Assembly: GCF_003350005.1 (NCBI RefSeq)
Contig: NZ_QLKS01000001.1
Coordinates: 353,946 to 417,945, forward strand
DNA length: 64,000 bases
DNA from: Psychrobacter proteolyticus
GTDB lineage: Bacteria > Pseudomonadota > Gammaproteobacteria > Pseudomonadales > Moraxellaceae
Direction of reading: 5' to 3'
The notes below the pieces were generated by a model. It saw nothing but the letters and a program-made list of their open reading frames with translations, had not been told where the DNA came from and did not search any database. Made by a program: the position numbers and the translations under genes. This document shows, piece by piece, positions 2,771-11,701 of the stretch; position 1 is the stretch's first letter, and each line of letters begins with the position of its first letter.

Positions 2771-4249
2771 TTAGAACGGATATTCACGTGGCTCATTTTG
2801 CATTGAGATCCAATGTGTTCTGGTGAATTCTTCTAGTACCCACTCACCGTTGAAACGGCCGATACCTGAATTTTTCTCACCACCAAAAGCCACGTTACTT
2901 TCATCGTTTACTGGAATATCATTTATATGGGTCATACCTGCTCGGATACCACGAGCGAAACGTAAACCTTTTTGCATGTCTGCGGTAAACACCGCACTAG
3001 ATAAGCCATACATAGAGTCATTAGCTATCGACAAAGCATCCTCTTCATTTTTGGCTCGAATAATGCCTATCAATGGTCCAAATATTTCATTATAGGCAAT
3101 ATCCATCTCTCTAGTAACTTCGGTAAAGACATGGGGCGGGACTAATTGACCATTGATTTCACCGCTCAAGAGCATTTTTGCGCCTTCTTTCTGTGCCTCA
3201 TCAATCTTATCTCTAAGTGACTGAACTTGTTTCTCATTGATGATTGGGCCAATAGCAGTACCTTGATCGTTAGGATCACCTACCTGTAACGTTTTAACAT
3301 GAGACAAGAAACGCTCTACAAACTCATCGTACACTTCATTTTCAACAATAATTCGGTTAATAGCCATACAAATCTGGCCTTGATGCAAGAACTTACCGAA
3401 CACGGCTGCTTTTACTGCCTGATCAATATCTGCATCCTTGAGTACAACAAATGGACTGTTTCCACCTAACTCAAGTGCCACTTGTTTGATATGCTCACCA
3501 CCATTAGCTAGCTCACCGATGTGTTTACCCACTGAAGTTGATCCTGTGAATGACACAAAACTTGACGCTTTGTGTTCAACGATTGCATCGCCTATCTCGC
3601 TGCCTGAACCCACAACCACGTTTAACAGGCCTTTTGGTAGACCCGCTTCTTCAAATACTTTGGCCAATAGTAAACCACCAGTCACTGGCGTATCGCTAGC
3701 AGGCTTGAGTACCACTGCATTGCCAAGTGCTAAGGCTGGCGCGATAGAGCGTTGAGTTAAATGTAGTGGAAAGTTCCATGGGCTAATAACAGCGACAACA
3801 CCGATTGGCTCACGATAAATAAAGTTTTCTTTGCCAGGAGTATTTGATGGGCGAATCTCACCATGGACACGATTAGGGAATGTCGCTGCTTCCAGGGTAA
3901 TCGCGCGCGTCGCACCGAACTCGACCATGGCTTTGATACGAGTACTGCCCGACTCTTTGATTAGCCAGTCAACGATTTCTTCTTGGCGCTGATCCAGTAT
4001 GTTGACCACTTTATATAATACTGCAGAACGCTCTGCTGGTGTCTGCTTAGCCCACGTTTCTTGAGCTTGGGTTGCAGCATCATAGGCTTTATTCAACTGA
4101 TCTTTGGTCGCTTGCTGGATCTCTACAAGCGTATCACCGTTATATGGGTTGGTATTATTGTTGGTGCTATCGTCTTTACCAGTCTGCCATTCACCAGCGA
4201 TGAACTGCAAATGAAAGTCGCTATATGCACTAGTAGTATTGGTTGACAT
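2771..4249 (-). CDS. NAD(P)-dependent aldehyde dehydrogenase (aromatic/vanillin-type)
   Basis: A full-length aldehyde dehydrogenase of 492 aa that oxidises aldehydes to acids in the cytoplasm. Counting from the upstream ATG at 4255, the SPWNFPL motif is at about 158-164, the FTGS cofactor turn at 236-239, the general base Glu262 in LELGG and the nucleophile Cys296 in GQICMAINR. The ATG at 4249 is preferred because AAGG lies 6 nt before it; the ATG at 4255 sits against that site and adds only two residues. The closest wording is to benzaldehyde/vanillin dehydrogenases; the exact substrate is an inference. It is divergent from the NemR-like gene, and their shared intergenic region carries the 15-bp operator at 4474, so induction by electrophiles is likely. 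Confidence 0.9.
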
Positions 4250-4677
4250 AATCATCCTTATTTTTAATTTGTTATGTTAAGTATTGGTTTGCGATTATTA
4301 AAATAAAATTATTAAGTCGGCGATATCTTAATGAGAAAATATCTGGCAAGTGATAAGTCTGAAATCGTTACCAAGCTATCAATCAATAGTCATCAATTAA
4401 AAAAAGCTCTAATGAAAAATGATCTTTAGCAATAAATACTAACGGTAACGGATAACAACAAAACCTACCTTGCTAGACGACTGGTCTAATGCTACCATAG
4501 CTATCAATAAAACAAGACTACTTTGTCAGTGAATATTGTTGATAAAACGTAACACATATAACTATATCCTATTACAATACGTCATCAACGTGACGTTCAA
4601 ATGAACGCTAACTGTCTTAACTGACTATTTAATGCATACGCTAATATAAGCAACTACTAAGGGAGATAATCCTGTTT
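4250..4677. promoter_or_regulatory. Divergent promoter region of aldehyde dehydrogenase and NemR-like gene
   Basis: These 428 bp have no gene. The only strong signal is the operator palindrome at 4474-4488, roughly 190 bp from the regulator's ATG and 225 bp from the dehydrogenase ATG. The rest is AT-rich and could hold several promoters; I cannot pick -35/-10 pairs with confidence. Confidence 0.6.
4474..4488. promoter_or_regulatory. NemR-type operator, copy 1
   Basis: TAGACGACTGGTCTA has inverted 5-bp arms TAGAC/GTCTA. The same 15 bases, and 18 with flanks (CTAGAC...TAAT), recur at 5466-5480 upstream of yqhD. The arms match the kind of site described for Escherichia coli NemR. Two identical copies around the regulator gene make an operator role likely. 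Confidence 0.75.
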
Positions 4678-5277
4678 ATGTCTAATACAGACGCAACGAC
4701 ACCAGATACCAAAGCTCATTTACTTGCTACTGGCTACCAATTAATTGCTAAAAAAGGTTTTACCGCTGTTGGTCTAAAGCAAATTTTAGATACAGCAGGT
4801 GTACCAAAGGGTTCTTTTTACCATTACTTTGCTTCTAAAGAAGCCTTTGGTGAAGCCATTATTAATCATTACTTTAGCTTATATAAGACTCGCTTAGATG
4901 TCATCAATGCACAAGATGTCAGTGCGCAGCAAAAGCTATATGATTATTTTCAAAACTGGTATGACACCCAGCAGAACGGCTGTGACCATGAAAAATGCTT
5001 GGTAGTGAAGCTCAGCGCAGAGGTAGCCGATATGTCAGAAACCATGCGTAAGGCACTCGATACTGGCTATCAGCAGACGACCATGTGGCTTGCTAAGCAG
5101 ATCAAAGCTGGCTGGCTCGATGAGTCTATCCCTCGTCACGATAACATCTCGGCTGAGAGTATGGCCAAGCGTTGGTATTTTGCATGGCTTGGTGCAAGCT
5201 TGATTGCAAAGATTAGCCAAACCAATACGCCTTTAGCAGAAATCTGGCAGATGACAACCACTCAGATGGGACGTTAA
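4678..5277 (+). CDS. nemR: NemR-like TetR-family redox/electrophile-sensing repressor
   Basis: At 199 aa with an N-terminal helix-turn-helix (about residues 30-52, VGLKQILDTAGVPKGSFYHYF), it matches E. coli NemR in wording throughout. NemR represses detoxification genes and is released by N-ethylmaleimide, methylglyoxal, quinones and bleach through Cys106, which forms a reversible bond with Lys175. Here Cys107 in KCLVVKLSAEV and Lys178 in LIAKIS occupy those places; the second E. coli cysteine (Cys116) is Ala, and an extra Cys102 is present. An AAGGGAG site lies ahead of the start. The gene lies between an aldehyde dehydrogenase and a YqhD gene that both have the 15-bp operator upstream. Autoregulation is probable, since the first operator lies in its own promoter region. 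Confidence 0.88.
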   Translation: MSNTDATTPDTKAHLLATGYQLIAKKGFTAVGLKQILDTAGVPKGSFYHYFASKEAFGEAIINHYFSLYKTRLDVINAQDVSAQQKLYDYFQNWYDTQQNGCDHEKCLVVKLSAEVADMSETMRKALDTGYQQTTMWLAKQIKAGWLDESIPRHDNISAESMAKRWYFAWLGASLIAKISQTNTPLAEIWQMTTTQMGR

Positions 5278-5340
5278 CTCTTTTAAGCAAGCTAGCCTCA
5301 AGCCAATTATTTCTAAGCAAGTGAATATTCATTAATATGA

Positions 5341-5376
5341 ATAGCGCGGTGGCTAAGTTCTCAACCGCCGCGCTAT
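5341..5376 (+). terminator. GC-rich hairpin after the regulator gene
   Basis: The arms ATAGCGCGGTGG (5341-5352) and CCGCCGCGCTAT (5365-5376) pair with one G-U and a 12-nt loop. It starts about 64 bp after the nemR stop. It has no T-run, so it may be a weak terminator or an mRNA 3'-end stabiliser. Confidence 0.5.
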
Positions 5377-5465
5377 ATCATAGCTTGCCATTCGACATCC
5401 GCATTTAAACCAGTCTCATCAATGATCGCAAAAAAGGTTTTGTACGATAGTTTTGTAAATATCAC

Positions 5466-5480
5466 TAGACGACTGGTCTA
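5466..5480. promoter_or_regulatory. NemR-type operator, copy 2 (yqhD promoter)
   Basis: Identical 15-mer to the site at 4474. It lies just upstream of a TACAAT -10-like hexamer (5488-5493), where a bound repressor would block the promoter of the YqhD gene. The remaining 358-bp gap between nemR and yqhD holds the hairpin above and AT-rich leader sequence. Confidence 0.75.
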
Positions 5481-5635
5481 ATTGGTGTACAATGCGCACA
5501 AATATTAAGAATGAATGCCTATACGAGCATTGCTTATCATTTCATTCATTGATTGATATCAGACAATATCCCATGTCAAAACAATTTAATTGAATCGTTT
5601 TTATTAAAAACTTTTTATTACTAATTAGGAATCTT

Positions 5636-6847
5636 ATGAATAACTTCCAATACTACAACCCAGTCCGTATCGTTTTTGGTGAAGGTCAAATCGAGCAATT
5701 ATCAGATCTAGTCCCTACTGATGCGCGTGTACTCATTACTTATGGTGGTGGTTCAGCTCAGCGTACTGGTACATTAGACGAAGTAAAAACTGCATTAGCG
5801 GCAAGCGGTGAACGTACTGTATTTGAATTTGGTGGCATTGAAGCCAACCCAGAATTCACCACATTACTTAAAGCCGCTGATATGGTTAATGAGCACAACA
5901 TCGACTTCTTATTAGCAGTTGGCGGTGGTTCTGTGATTGATGGCAGCAAATTTGTCGCACTCGTTTCTTCATTGACTGAAGAAGACGGCACTGTCTCACG
6001 TGACCAAGCTTGGGATGCCTTAACTGGTTATTGCAAAAACATCGATTCTGCTGTCGATTTGGGCGCGGTATTGACTATCCCAGCCACAGGTTCTGAGATG
6101 AACTCAGGTGGCGTGATCAACTATAGTGAACGTCAAGCAAAACTACCGTTTGGTAACCCACTTGCCTTCCCTAAATTCTCAATTCTAGATCCAATCAAAA
6201 CACTTACCTTGCCTGAACGTCAGGTTATGAATGGTGTGGCTGATGCATTTGTTCATGTAATGGAACAATATCTGACTTACCCAGTAAACGCGAAAGTACA
6301 AGATGCCTTTGCTGAGAGCTTGCTTAAAATCCTTATTGATGAAGGTCTAGTTGTTAAGCAAGATCCAGAAAACCTAGAAACACGTAAGAACATTATGTGG
6401 ACAGCGACGATGGCATTGAACGGTCTGATCGGTACTGGTGTACCACAAGACTGGACAACTCACATGGTTGGTCATGAGCTGACGTCACTACACGCTATCG
6501 ATCATGCACGTACGCTAACCATCGTATTACCATCAGTCATGCGTGAGCTAAAAGAAAGCAAAAAAGAAAAACTGCTTCAGTATGCGCGTAACGTATGGAA
6601 CATTACCGATACTGACCTAGATGACGATGCCATTATCGAAACGGCCATTATTTACACTGAAAACTTTTTCCGCGAGCTTGGCTTGCCAGTTAGCCTAGAA
6701 GACGTTGACTTGACGGAATCAGCGATTGATCCAATCATCAAGCAGCTTGAAGTGCATAACATGGTTAAGCTTGGTGAACATGGTACCAACGACCTAGAAG
6801 TATCACGTCGTATCTTGCAGCGCGCTGTAACTAGCAAAGCCTCTTAA
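5636..6847 (+). CDS. yqhD: YqhD-type iron/zinc-containing alcohol dehydrogenase (aldehyde reductase)
   Basis: 403 aa and collinear with E. coli YqhD, starting with the same MNNF. The YqhD family is a group III metal alcohol dehydrogenase that uses NADPH to reduce short and lipid-derived aldehydes. The nucleotide-binding run GGGSVIDG is at 96-103. Metal ligands are visible as Asp203 and His207 (GVADAFVHVMEQY), His276 (THMVGHE) and His290 (AIDHART). It ends with the conserved LEVSRRI. It is slightly longer than the E. coli protein through an acidic insert near 112-125 (SLTEEDGTVSRDQ). Its promoter has the NemR-type operator, as in E. coli where the family defends against aldehydes. An AGGAAT site precedes the ATG. 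Confidence 0.93.
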   Translation: MNNFQYYNPVRIVFGEGQIEQLSDLVPTDARVLITYGGGSAQRTGTLDEVKTALAASGERTVFEFGGIEANPEFTTLLKAADMVNEHNIDFLLAVGGGSVIDGSKFVALVSSLTEEDGTVSRDQAWDALTGYCKNIDSAVDLGAVLTIPATGSEMNSGGVINYSERQAKLPFGNPLAFPKFSILDPIKTLTLPERQVMNGVADAFVHVMEQYLTYPVNAKVQDAFAESLLKILIDEGLVVKQDPENLETRKNIMWTATMALNGLIGTGVPQDWTTHMVGHELTSLHAIDHARTLTIVLPSVMRELKESKKEKLLQYARNVWNITDTDLDDDAIIETAIIYTENFFRELGLPVSLEDVDLTESAIDPIIKQLEVHNMVKLGEHGTNDLEVSRRILQRAVTSKAS

Positions 6848-7014: not shown

Positions 7015-8064
7015 ATGAGCTTCGACAAACAACAGAATCAACAAACAAACCGTCAAATCAAATTGGCTAGCCGTCCTAATGGCGTACCTACTGCTGACAA
7101 CTTTGACATGGCAACTAGCGACATCCCTACGCCAAAAGATAACGAGATGCTACTACGCACGGTATATCTATCACTAGATCCATATATGCGTGGACGTATG
7201 AGCGATGCAAAAAGCTATGCAGACCCGTTAGAAGTCGGTGACGTCATCATGGGTGGTACCGTAGCGCAAGTGGTCGAGTCAAATATCGATAACTTCGCGG
7301 TAGGCGACTTGGTCGTATCAAACTCAGGCTGGCAAGATTACAGTGTCAGTGATGGCGAAGGCGTCCTCAAACTAGACAAAAACATGTCTAACCCTTCTTA
7401 TGGTTTAGGCGTGTTAGGTATGCCAGGGTTTACCGGTTACATGGGTCTGACTGATATCGGTAAACCACAGAAAGGCGAAACTTTAGTCGTAGCAGCAGCC
7501 ACTGGACCCGTCGGTGCCACTGTCGGCCAAGTGGGTAATCAACATGGTCTGCACACTGTCGGTGTGGCAGGCGGTAAAGAGAAATGCGACTTTGCGGTCA
7601 ATGAGCTTGGCTTCGATATCTGTATCGATCACAAAGCTGACGACTTCGCTGAGCAATTAAAAGCAGCATGTCCAGATGGTATCGACATCTACTATGAAAA
7701 CGTCGGCGGTAAAGTATTTGATGCAGTGATGCCATTACTTAACGACCACGCACGTATTCCAGTATGTGGTCTGGTATCGCAGTACAATGCAACTGATTTA
7801 CCGCATGGTAAAGATCGCCTAGGTATGCTGATGGGTCTTATATTAAGCCAACGCCTAACTGTCAGAGGTTTCATTATCTTTGAAGAGTACGGCGACCACT
7901 TCCCAGAGTTCTTAGAAACCATGAGTAAATGGGTAGAGTCAGGCGAAGTGAAAACCAAAGAGCACATTACTGACGGTTTAGATAATGCCCCAGATGCATT
8001 TGTCAGTATGTTAAACGGTGATAACTTTGGTAAAACCGTAATCAAAGTATCTGACGTTAAGTAG
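7015..8064 (+). CDS. curA: NADPH-dependent enone/curcumin reductase (CurA family, MDR superfamily)
   Basis: 349 aa, matching E. coli CurA almost block by block: LASRPNGVPTADNF, TVYLSLDPYMRGRMSDA, LGVLGMPGFTGYMG, VVAAATGPVGATVGQ (the nucleotide-binding glycine run), GIDIYYENVGGKVFDAV and ITDGLDNAPDAF. The family reduces the C=C bond of alpha,beta-unsaturated ketones with NADPH and needs no zinc. It lies 167 bp after yqhD, has a strong AAAGGAG site, and fits a role in removing electrophilic enones. I see no NemR box of its own; it may be read through from yqhD or have a separate promoter. Confidence 0.9.
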   Translation: MSFDKQQNQQTNRQIKLASRPNGVPTADNFDMATSDIPTPKDNEMLLRTVYLSLDPYMRGRMSDAKSYADPLEVGDVIMGGTVAQVVESNIDNFAVGDLVVSNSGWQDYSVSDGEGVLKLDKNMSNPSYGLGVLGMPGFTGYMGLTDIGKPQKGETLVVAAATGPVGATVGQVGNQHGLHTVGVAGGKEKCDFAVNELGFDICIDHKADDFAEQLKAACPDGIDIYYENVGGKVFDAVMPLLNDHARIPVCGLVSQYNATDLPHGKDRLGMLMGLILSQRLTVRGFIIFEEYGDHFPEFLETMSKWVESGEVKTKEHITDGLDNAPDAFVSMLNGDNFGKTVIKVSDVK

Positions 8065-8273: not shown

Positions 8274-8951
8274 ATGAACATTTTAATGGTACTAACTTCT
8301 CATGACCGTTTAGGCGATACTGGTAAAAAAACTGGCTTTTGGCTAGAAGAATTTGCTGCTCCTTACTACGCATTTCTTGACGCCGGTGTAAATGTAACTC
8401 TAGCCTCTCCAGCAGGCGGTCAGCCACCACTAGATCCTAGTAGTGACACAGAAGACACGCAAACCAAGGATACCACTCGTTTTAAAGACGACAAAGACGC
8501 TCAAGAGCATTTGGCTAATACCAAAAAACTTGCTGATATGAACGCTGAAGATTTCGATTCAGTATTTTATCCTGGTGGTCATGGCCCATTGTGGGATTTG
8601 GCAGTAGATAAAAACTCTATCAATCTGATCGAGACTTTTGTTAAGCAAGACAAGCCTGTTGCTTTTGTTTGTCATTCTCCTGCAGCGCTTAAAAACGTTA
8701 AAGTCGATGGCGAGTATTTGGTAAAAGGCAAAACAGTGACTGGTTTTACTAACTCTGAAGAAGACGCAGTTGGCCTAACAGACGTAGTACCATTCCTAGT
8801 AGAAGACGCATTGAAAGCCAATGGCGGTAACTACGAAAAAGCGGCTGATTGGGAATCATTTGTTGTTGAAGATGGTCTTCTAATCACAGGTCAAAACCCT
8901 GCATCATCAGAAGAAGCTGCTAAGCGTCTAATGGCGAAGCTGAAAGGTTAG
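8274..8951 (+). CDS. DJ-1/PfpI family protein (class I glutamine amidotransferase-like, Hsp31/YDR533C type)
   Basis: 225 aa. It carries the nucleophile elbow FVCHSPAAL with Cys133 and His134 and the acid partner Glu25 in TGFWLEEF, the arrangement of glyoxalase III-like members. FYPGGHGPLWDL (98-109) is the family's oxyanion region. Such proteins convert methylglyoxal to lactate without glutathione, or act as chaperone/deglycase; which applies is inferred from context. It follows curA by 209 bp and is 30 bp ahead of the GST gene, so the last two are probably one unit. An AAGGATAATT ribosome site precedes the ATG. Confidence 0.85.
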   Translation: MNILMVLTSHDRLGDTGKKTGFWLEEFAAPYYAFLDAGVNVTLASPAGGQPPLDPSSDTEDTQTKDTTRFKDDKDAQEHLANTKKLADMNAEDFDSVFYPGGHGPLWDLAVDKNSINLIETFVKQDKPVAFVCHSPAALKNVKVDGEYLVKGKTVTGFTNSEEDAVGLTDVVPFLVEDALKANGGNYEKAADWESFVVEDGLLITGQNPASSEEAAKRLMAKLKG

Positions 8952-8981: not shown

Positions 8982-9611
8982 ATGATTCGCTTACATCATC
9001 TCAATCAATCACGTTCATTACGTACGCTATGGCTCTTAGAAGAGCTAGGCGTTCCTTATGAAGTAGTCAGCCATCAGCGCGATGCCAAAACTCATTTAGC
9101 ACCAGACTCTCTAAAAGCTGTACATCCACTCGGTAAGTCTCCGGTTATCGAAATGGATGGACAGATTTATGCTGAGTCAGGTGCCATCACTGAGTTATTG
9201 ATTGAACGGTTTGCGCCAGAGCGTCTGCGCCCTGCTACAGGAAGCTCAGACTATGGCTACTATCTACAGTGGATTGATTTTGCAGAGAGCTCGCTCATGT
9301 TGCCGTTAATGCTTGAGCTATTTACTAATAAAGCAGGCATCAATGACAATGAGTTTTTAAACGGCTATATCGAGACAGAAAAAACCAGATTGTTTAAGTA
9401 TCTGGATACTTCGGTTGAAGGTAAGTCGTTCATTGTGGGTGATAAGCTAAGTGGTGCTGACTTTATGTTGTCATTTGACTTAATCATTCTCGCTAAGCGT
9501 CAAAAACTCGACGCCTATCCGCATATCAAAAAGTATGCTGAAAAGCTGGCCGGTCTTGATAGCTATCAGCGGGCGATGCAGCTAGAAGCAGAATATGATG
9601 AATCAATTTAG
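8982..9611 (+). CDS. Glutathione S-transferase
   Basis: 209 aa with a two-domain GST layout. The N-terminal thioredoxin fold begins IRLHHLNQSRSLRTLWLLEELGVPYE; Ser10/Ser12 region residues are candidates for the catalytic hydroxyl. The glutathione gamma-glutamyl site is LGKSPVIEMDGQIYAESGAI (about 47-66). The helical C-terminal domain includes FIVGDKLSGADFMLSFDL. It conjugates or transfers glutathione in the cytosol. It is the last gene before a strong terminator and completes an aldehyde/electrophile detoxification series; substrate unknown. Confidence 0.88.
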   Translation: MIRLHHLNQSRSLRTLWLLEELGVPYEVVSHQRDAKTHLAPDSLKAVHPLGKSPVIEMDGQIYAESGAITELLIERFAPERLRPATGSSDYGYYLQWIDFAESSLMLPLMLELFTNKAGINDNEFLNGYIETEKTRLFKYLDTSVEGKSFIVGDKLSGADFMLSFDLIILAKRQKLDAYPHIKKYAEKLAGLDSYQRAMQLEAEYDESI

Positions 9612-10012: not shown

Positions 10013-11701
10013 ATGAGTAACGAATATCAGTTTAAGCCCCACGAACAACCGATAATGGTAGGCTCTCCTGCCAATCCTGATCATCCTGCACGCCGTAAAT
10101 TATTTTACTTACTGATTGGAATTTTCGTTGGTCTCACAGCTAGCCTCCAAAACGGTCTACTCGTTGCAAATCTTACTCAAATTCAGGGTCAACTGGGCTT
10201 AACACCAGCCGAAGGTGGTTGGATATCTGTTAGCTACAATATGACCAATGCCTGTATCACCGTTCTGCTGTACAAAATTCGCCAACAATTTGGCATGTCA
10301 CTCTTTAGCAAAATCACTCTGTTCTTTTTATTGGCCGCCACCAGTCTACAGTGGCTGATCAGCAGTCACTTGTTAGACACACCTAATATTAGCATTGAGC
10401 CCTATTATTTAGAGATTGTCGCTAGGGGACTTAGTGGTATGGTGGCAAGTGGTATGACCGTATTGGGCTTGTTTTATTGTCTTCAGGGTATGCCAACCGT
10501 CAAACGTACTAGTGGTCTCATATTGGGTTTTGGTTTGGTACAGTTTGGTATTCCATTATCACGTGTCATCTCGCCCTACCTCGCCATCGACGGTCAGCTT
10601 GAAAACTTATTTTTATTTCAATTTGGTCTGGCGCTGATTTGTTTTGGGCTGATTAATATATTAGAGCTACCACCAGGGAATACAGAAAAAGTATTTGAGA
10701 AATTGGATTTTGTAAGCTTTGGTTTTTTCGCAAGTGGTCTGGCTGCATTGGCTGTCGTTTTGGTACAAGGTCGAATTTTATGGTGGACGACACCTTGGCT
10801 CGTCTATCCACTGATGATTGCTATCGTCGGGATTGGCATCGCGTTATGGATTGAGACGCATCGCAAAAATCCAATGCTCCAAGTACGCTGGATGCGTAGT
10901 CGCAATATTATTGCATTCATGGTGACGGGCGCTGTCATGCGGATTTTGCTATCTGAGCAAAACGTCGGAGCGGCAGGATTGCTCGCTAACCTCGGCTACG
11001 GTAACGATCAGCTGGTTACTTTTTATGCTGTTATTATAGCCGCCAGTGCACTGGCTTTGATTATTAGTATTTTTAGTACCAATGCGATGGATTTGCGCCG
11101 ACCTGTTATTTTTGCCGTGGCATTGATTGCCTTAGGTTCTTGGATGGATGTTGGTGTGTCTATTAATTCAGCGCCCTATATGTTTTATCTTAGCCAGTTT
11201 TTGATTGCCTTTGCTGCAGTCTATTTCATGGGGCCTTTGGTTTTTGAAGGGTTTTTGCGGGCTATTGGCAGTGGCCCTGCGTATATTATTAGTTTTTCAG
11301 TGATTTTTGGCATCTCCCAAACAGTTGGCGGATTGGCAGGTGCAGCGGCTATTCAGGCATTTACGACCATTCGTACACAGGTCCATTATGCAGATATGGT
11401 CAGCTCACTGAATTTGGGTGATCCTACGTTCAGCGCTCAAATTGCTGGTACTCGTAGTGTATTGTCAAACCAAACGACGGACGCAGCACAAGCGAATGTG
11501 GCCGCGATGAGCCAAGTGTTGCAAGGGATTCAGCGCCAAGCAACTGTCTCCGCTTATAGCGATTTGTTCTTTTTGATGGCCAGTTTTGCTACTTTCGTTA
11601 CAGCCATTTTATTGATCAACTATTTTTATAACCGTTACCACAAGCGCAATCCACTTGCTAAAGAGCTTGCCGTTATTGCAAAAATGCGTGAGTCAAAATA
11701 G
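10013..11701 (+). CDS. MFS drug/solute efflux transporter (EmrB/DHA2-like)
   Basis: 562 aa and strongly hydrophobic. A 28-residue cytoplasmic tail precedes the first membrane segment (FYLLIGIFVGLTASLQNGLLVA); about 12-14 segments follow. The motif GGWISVSYNMTNACITVLLY near 68-87 corresponds to the second-helix region of the DHA2 group. A long periplasmic-looking loop near 455-505 (HYADMVSSLNLGDPTFSAQ...) precedes the last segment, as in EmrB/FarB partners. It is followed 85 bp later by a HlyD/EmrA adaptor, so the two should form a tripartite pump with an outer-membrane channel encoded elsewhere. Substrate unknown. Confidence 0.85.
   Translation: MSNEYQFKPHEQPIMVGSPANPDHPARRKLFYLLIGIFVGLTASLQNGLLVANLTQIQGQLGLTPAEGGWISVSYNMTNACITVLLYKIRQQFGMSLFSKITLFFLLAATSLQWLISSHLLDTPNISIEPYYLEIVARGLSGMVASGMTVLGLFYCLQGMPTVKRTSGLILGFGLVQFGIPLSRVISPYLAIDGQLENLFLFQFGLALICFGLINILELPPGNTEKVFEKLDFVSFGFFASGLAALAVVLVQGRILWWTTPWLVYPLMIAIVGIGIALWIETHRKNPMLQVRWMRSRNIIAFMVTGAVMRILLSEQNVGAAGLLANLGYGNDQLVTFYAVIIAASALALIISIFSTNAMDLRRPVIFAVALIALGSWMDVGVSINSAPYMFYLSQFLIAFAAVYFMGPLVFEGFLRAIGSGPAYIISFSVIFGISQTVGGLAGAAAIQAFTTIRTQVHYADMVSSLNLGDPTFSAQIAGTRSVLSNQTTDAAQANVAAMSQVLQGIQRQATVSAYSDLFFLMASFATFVTAILLINYFYNRYHKRNPLAKELAVIAKMRESK

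Follow-up and report, generated by a model that had tools for sequence, protein, structure and literature searches.

A predicted operator shared by a CurR/NemR-group repressor and neighboring carbonyl-detoxification genes in Psychrobacter proteolyticus

In the 64,000-nt stretch of the Psychrobacter proteolyticus genome analyzed here (the window), two exact copies of the 15-mer TAGACGACTGGTCTA, both on the (+) strand, flank the gene of a 199-aa TetR-family regulator, one on each side, and comparison with relatives makes a convincing case that this 15-mer is the regulator's predicted operator. The regulator (4678–5277, + strand) belongs to the CurR/NemR group and is CurR-like by sequence and neighborhood, without being a proven orthologue of either protein. 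By analogy with its characterized relatives, its most likely signals are reactive aldehydes, quinones or bleach, in response to which it would switch on nearby detoxifying enzymes.

The gene order in the window is aldehyde dehydrogenase (ALDH; − strand), regulator, yqhD, curA, a DJ-1-like gene and a glutathione S-transferase (GST) gene. Most congeners retain the last four genes in this order. The sequence-only reading had placed the same 15-mer in the ALDH/regulator spacer and just before the −10 element of yqhD, and exact copies do lie there: predicted operator O1 at 4474–4488 (+) in the ALDH/regulator intergenic region and predicted operator O2 at 5466–5480 (+), overlapping the −35 region of the yqhD promoter. 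O1 is located 189 bases 5′ of the regulator ATG and 218 bases from the ALDH start, between a weak −35-like TTGCTA (4470–4475) and a −10-like TACCAT (4493–4498), both belonging to the regulator. For yqhD, a promoter scan returned TAGACG, a 16-base spacer and the −10-like TACAAT (5488–5493, + strand), with 7 bases between O2 and TACAAT. A scan of the whole genome (3,031,855 bases) found exact copies of TAGACGACTGGTCTA at these two positions only, against a chance expectation from base composition of ~0.0001 copies per window and 0.005 per genome. Beyond the 15-mer, the flanks of O1 and O2 are unrelated and not duplicated, so the pair is not a recent repeat.

We found that the regulator and the site occur together. 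Among 100 congeneric genomes, the pattern TAGACGAYYNGTCTA was present in all 95 that carry the regulator and in none of the five that lack it (G014, G021, G082, G083 and G088; Fisher p = 1.3e-8, kinship ignored); a search of these five genomes for YqhD, which had no positive control, gave no match. In the regulator–yqhD spacer of 37 loci, O2 forms the most conserved 15-base block (rank 1 of 344 windows; 0.95 vs 0.35 overall), and TACAAT or a near variant follows at a nearly fixed distance from O2 in most congeneric loci. In comparison, O1 has a mean column identity of 0.98 vs 0.45 for the whole region in the ALDH–regulator spacer of 28 ALDH-bearing loci, the window included. The motif was also found in 22/22 order-wide relatives and, with unchanged spacing, at 78 of the 80 named Pseudomonadota loci (genera included Pseudomonas, Shewanella, Oceanimonas, Thauera, Duganella and Vibrio, with P. 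aeruginosa itself outside the set). All 119 sites of this named set have a 5-base spacer, and 106 of them read TAGACGACYGGTCTA. A frequent order in the named loci is site–regulator–site–yqhD/curA/DJ-1, and the neighbors of motif and regulator in relatives are YqhD, CurA, DJ-1, NemA and GST in changing combinations. E. coli has a box upstream of nemR, TAGACCGACTGGTCTA, that equals the motif plus one inserted C. A predicted operator of the type TAGAC-N5/6-GTCTA is found at the regulator's own promoter and at enzyme promoters. Asymmetric sites before yqhD, curA, nemA or DJ-1 are oriented along the gene in 93/93 cases, a fixed orientation that may reflect simple overlap with the −35 element.

Co-occurrence, the conserved block, the spread of the motif among relatives and the E. 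coli nemR box all support the proposal that the 15-mer is the regulator's operator. That the repeat arose by chance or by recent duplication and has no function would fit the limit of two exact copies in the window, but the probability of this is vanishingly small given the expectation and the unduplicated flanks described above, and the conservation of the 15-mer over many families while its flanks diverged rules it out. Sites inside coding regions or in odd contexts (L116–L120) were put aside as likely chance matches; one of these loci (L117, 4317–4331) has a stray reverse-oriented 15-mer in a longer palindrome-like context, GTCAC-site-GTGAC, and no regulator of the CurR/NemR group was found there. 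A literature search with the operator letters returned nothing relevant.

The plainest role of O1 is autoregulation, since the site lies between the regulator's weak −35 and −10 elements and in the regulator's orientation. The divergent ALDH (494 aa; 2771–4255, − strand) matches Pfam Aldedh with 550 bits and many aldehyde dehydrogenase models of NCBIfam, none of them over its cut-off, and it adjoins the regulator in most of the congeneric loci fetched. Control of ALDH by the regulator through O1 is possible on comparative grounds because O1, exact or with one mismatch, is present in 27 of 28 ALDH-bearing loci vs 4 of 9 loci without ALDH (p = 0.0016, kinship ignored). A tighter tie between ALDH and O1 was dropped: counting exact matches alone gave p = 2.6e-5, but the ALDH-less loci L037 and L039 hold a one-mismatch site. 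In five other congeneric loci (L034, L035, L036, L040 and L042), ALDH and a clear O1 are both missing and the yqhD-side site is kept. We put the probability that O1 is purely autoregulatory, with ALDH outside the regulon, at slightly below even. The orientation of O1 with the regulator, its place inside that gene's putative promoter and its persistence in four of the nine ALDH-less loci point this way, as does the fact that only 1 of 14 sites before ALDH points along that gene, as opposed to all of those before the four enzyme genes above. However, the excess of O1 in ALDH-bearing loci speaks against a purely autoregulatory site, and a single bound repressor could block both promoters. The claim that O1 serves as the ALDH operator is overstated, since by position and direction O1 is a better fit to the promoter of the regulator itself.

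Downstream of the regulator, the order of enzyme genes after O2 was confirmed, and comparison supports the suggestion that they form a carbonyl/enone detoxification regulon. The first gene encodes a 403-aa YqhD-like iron-containing aldehyde reductase (5636–6847, + strand; Pfam Fe-ADH; NCBIfam PRK15138 with 499 bits, below its cut-off of 645), and the second encodes CurA, a 349-aa NADPH-dependent curcumin/enone reductase (7015–8064, +; NF058644 with 574 bits, over the equivalog cut-off of 440). These are followed by a 225-aa DJ-1/PfpI-like protein (8274–8951, +; Pfam DJ-1_PfpI with 58 bits, NCBIfam models under their cut-offs), possibly a glyoxalase or deglycase, and by a 209-aa GST (8982–9611, +; Pfam GST_N and GST_C). 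The gaps within yqhD–curA–DJ-1–GST are 167, 209 and 30 bases; the four genes presumably form one transcript, and the 167- and 209-base spacers could hold other promoters. The spacer that separates the regulator from yqhD contains a strong hairpin (5336–5382, + strand; −25.3 kcal/mol, z = −4.2), possibly a transcript end or processing signal; it has no T tract, and a terminator scan called no terminator there. Further along, the window contains a gene for a 562-aa transporter-like membrane protein (10013–11701), for which searches of Pfam and NCBIfam models gave no match at E 0.001, and then an EmrA/HlyD-type gene.

The two operators in the window stand as described, but a third operator-like site, TAGACGACCAGTCTA, with two mismatches, is located elsewhere in the same genome (C14:525138–525152, i.e., L051 5139–5153). 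It lies 188 bases 5′ of a gene for an MDR-family reductase (PIG3/quinone-reductase-like, below cut-off), which is followed by a gene for a YhdH-type acrylyl-CoA reductase (YhdH family, above cut-off). Other sites with 2–3 mismatches, which would have defined a wider regulon in the genome, were dropped in bulk because the matches to a backwards control pattern outnumbered those to the true pattern; the C14:525138 site alone was retained because it is conserved in congeners, namely in four loci (L121–L124), one of them with diverged flanks.

In some congeners (L105 8446–8493; L106–L115), the spacer separating the AcuR and AcuI genes contains a tandem pair of sites from the same 15-mer family, which suggests that AcuR and the CurR-like regulator share predicted operators in these organisms; a search for AcuR in the genome of the window gave no match. 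In both E. coli (L104 1494–1509) and Klebsiella (L257 2471–2486), the site upstream of nemR is 16 bp long and has six central bases; Klebsiella (L257) carries a further site, of 15 bp (3126–3140), between nemR and nemA. As a tentative idea, to which we give well under an even chance, a single asymmetric, gene-oriented 15-bp operator would be common to CurR-, NemR- and AcuR-type repressors across Pseudomonadota, with paralogues that coexist in a cell, such as the CurR-like regulator and AcuR in some congeners, reading the same sites as a merged electrophile/acrylate network and enterobacterial nemR having shifted to a 16-bp form.

The regulator had been called NemR-like on account of its residues. 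Both TetR_N and TetR_C_13 exceed their Pfam gathering scores, and the top NCBIfam model is CurR (NF058643, an equivalog; 204 bits, under the cut-off of 300); since E. coli NemR scores 196 bits on the same model, it fails to separate the two proteins. The AcuR model NF051457 gave 123.7 bits (cut-off, 247), and no acuI adjoins the regulator. Alignment to E. coli NemR (~42% identity) confirmed that Cys107 corresponds to Cys106 and Lys178 to Lys175, that Cys116 is replaced by Ala117, and that Cys102 is present, Cys102 and Cys107 being the only cysteines. The Cys107/Lys178 pair is, however, invariant in all 174 regulators collected, the AcuR of congeners among them, and as AcuR also has it, the pair marks the whole group and is not diagnostic of NemR; as proof of NemR identity it was ruled out. 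Nor is Cys102 an oddity: 58 of 61 congeneric sequences share it, and PA2196 has a cysteine at the aligned position.

A search of solved structures ranked 3rd3 (158.8 bits) and 4l62 (157.8 bits) first, at 1e-45, followed by 3knw and then NemR 4yze (130.3 bits, 7e-37). We take 3rd3 and 4l62 to be PA2196 (CurR), in line with the title of a published PA2196-operator structure. In a 51-row tree, the window regulator clusters with its congeners in a single clade, with poorly resolved branching at deeper levels, and enterobacterial NemR falls together with nemA-linked Pseudomonas-type regulators in a group that leaves out the window regulator (91% SH-aLRT, from a short search with long-branch warnings). 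A wider FastTree set the window regulator beside PA2196 and apart from NemR with modest support (0.78 and 0.83). A class-wide genome sample contained no close NemR, and a Klebsiella plasmid copy was used for Enterobacterales instead. As for the neighborhood, curA lies two genes downstream of the regulator with yqhD between, and neither nemA nor gloA is among the genes beside the regulator (ALDH, yqhD, curA, DJ-1 and GST).

On this evidence, we consider true orthology to NemR, with the ligand range and HOCl/Cys106–Lys175 chemistry of NemR kept and the gene relocated to a new neighborhood, quite unlikely for this regulator. The identity to NemR, the aligned Cys106/Lys175 equivalents and an operator almost identical to the E. 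coli box would agree with orthology, but PA2196 is the better match among solved structures, enterobacterial NemR clusters with nemA-linked regulators in the tree just qualified, the Cys/Lys pair is common to AcuR, and nemA and gloA are absent from the neighborhood. What holds of the NemR-like label, by comparison, is membership of the CurR/NemR group and an electrophile-type TetR repressor; the specific link to NemR gives way to the higher PA2196 score (158.8 vs 130.3 bits), the tree and the CurA neighbor.

Taken together, sequence evidence and analogy make it quite probable that the regulator is a CurR/NemR-group repressor that binds O1 and O2 in unstressed cells and is released when electrophiles or chlorine oxidants modify Cys107, derepressing the detoxification enzymes. 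Specifically, a homodimeric TetR repressor would recognize TAGACGAC(T/C)GGTCTA in the unstressed cell; at O1, between its own −35 and −10 elements, it would repress its own gene and perhaps also limit divergent ALDH, and at O2 it would cover the −35 region of yqhD and silence yqhD–curA–DJ-1–GST. The third site would add the MDR-family reductase and the YhdH-type acrylyl-CoA reductase to the regulon. Reactive electrophiles or chlorine oxidants would then modify Cys107 near Lys178 and the dimer would leave the DNA, a step we propose because of the analogy with CurR and NemR, and the derepressed enzymes would reduce aldehydes and enones.

The signal is not settled by the Cys/Lys pair, as AcuR with the same pair answers acrylate (PMC3017554). 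This relative, the third site preceding a YhdH/AcuI-type reductase and the same operator at AcuR–AcuI of congeners would all suit a repressor that binds an unsaturated carbonyl metabolite in a pocket, in the style of AcuR and acrylate, and is not a thiol redox switch. We regard such a pocket ligand as unlikely, however, since Cys107 is invariant and both of the closest characterized relatives are reported as oxidant or electrophile sensors: NemR in PMC5297802, and P. aeruginosa CurR (PA2196), going by the title of Duang-Nkern 2024 as cited in PMC12838394, as an NaOCl- and NEM-sensing repressor of curA.

For electrophile-sensing repressors of this widespread group, these results offer a well-supported predicted operator, with a motif usable for regulon prediction. 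They tie the yqhD, curA, DJ-1-like and enone-reductase genes to a predicted CurR/NemR-group operator in bacteria other than E. coli, in which the activator YqhC governs yqhD (PMC5297802). Modules of this operator–regulator–enzyme type are common among Pseudomonadota, and the closest of them have already been published; the AcuR–AcuI motif, the one-base spacing change in enterobacterial nemR and the fixed site orientation may be unexpected to specialists. Cross-regulation is directly testable because the CurR, NemR and AcuR sites are near-identical.

Among known systems, CurR–curA of P. aeruginosa (PA2196–PA2197; presumably 3rd3 and 4l62) resembles the window locus in giving the best solved-structure match, in the alignment of both Cys102 and Cys107 and in the curA neighbor, and related Pseudomonas loci carry the same 15-mer. 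It differs in that identity is only moderate and in that the window has yqhD first, ALDH divergent and DJ-1/GST downstream. The E. coli NemR–nemA–gloA system shares a TetR repressor, the aligned Cys106/Lys175 and a near-identical operator, but its operator has six central bases instead of five, its targets are nemA and gloA, and Cys116 is present where the window has Ala. The stated departure from E. coli, where nemA and gloA follow nemR, holds, although other Pseudomonadota commonly show the arrangement seen here. A structure of PA2196 with operator DNA has also been published, going by its title as cited in PMC10636190. AcuR–AcuI, known from Rhodobacter sphaeroides and present in congeners, resembles the window locus in that its repressor is related and carries this Cys/Lys pair, and the congeneric loci also have the same 15-mer in tandem; it differs by an identity of ~31%, by acrylate as inducer and by the Rhodobacter operator, TAATAGAC-n6-GTCTATTA (PMC3017554).
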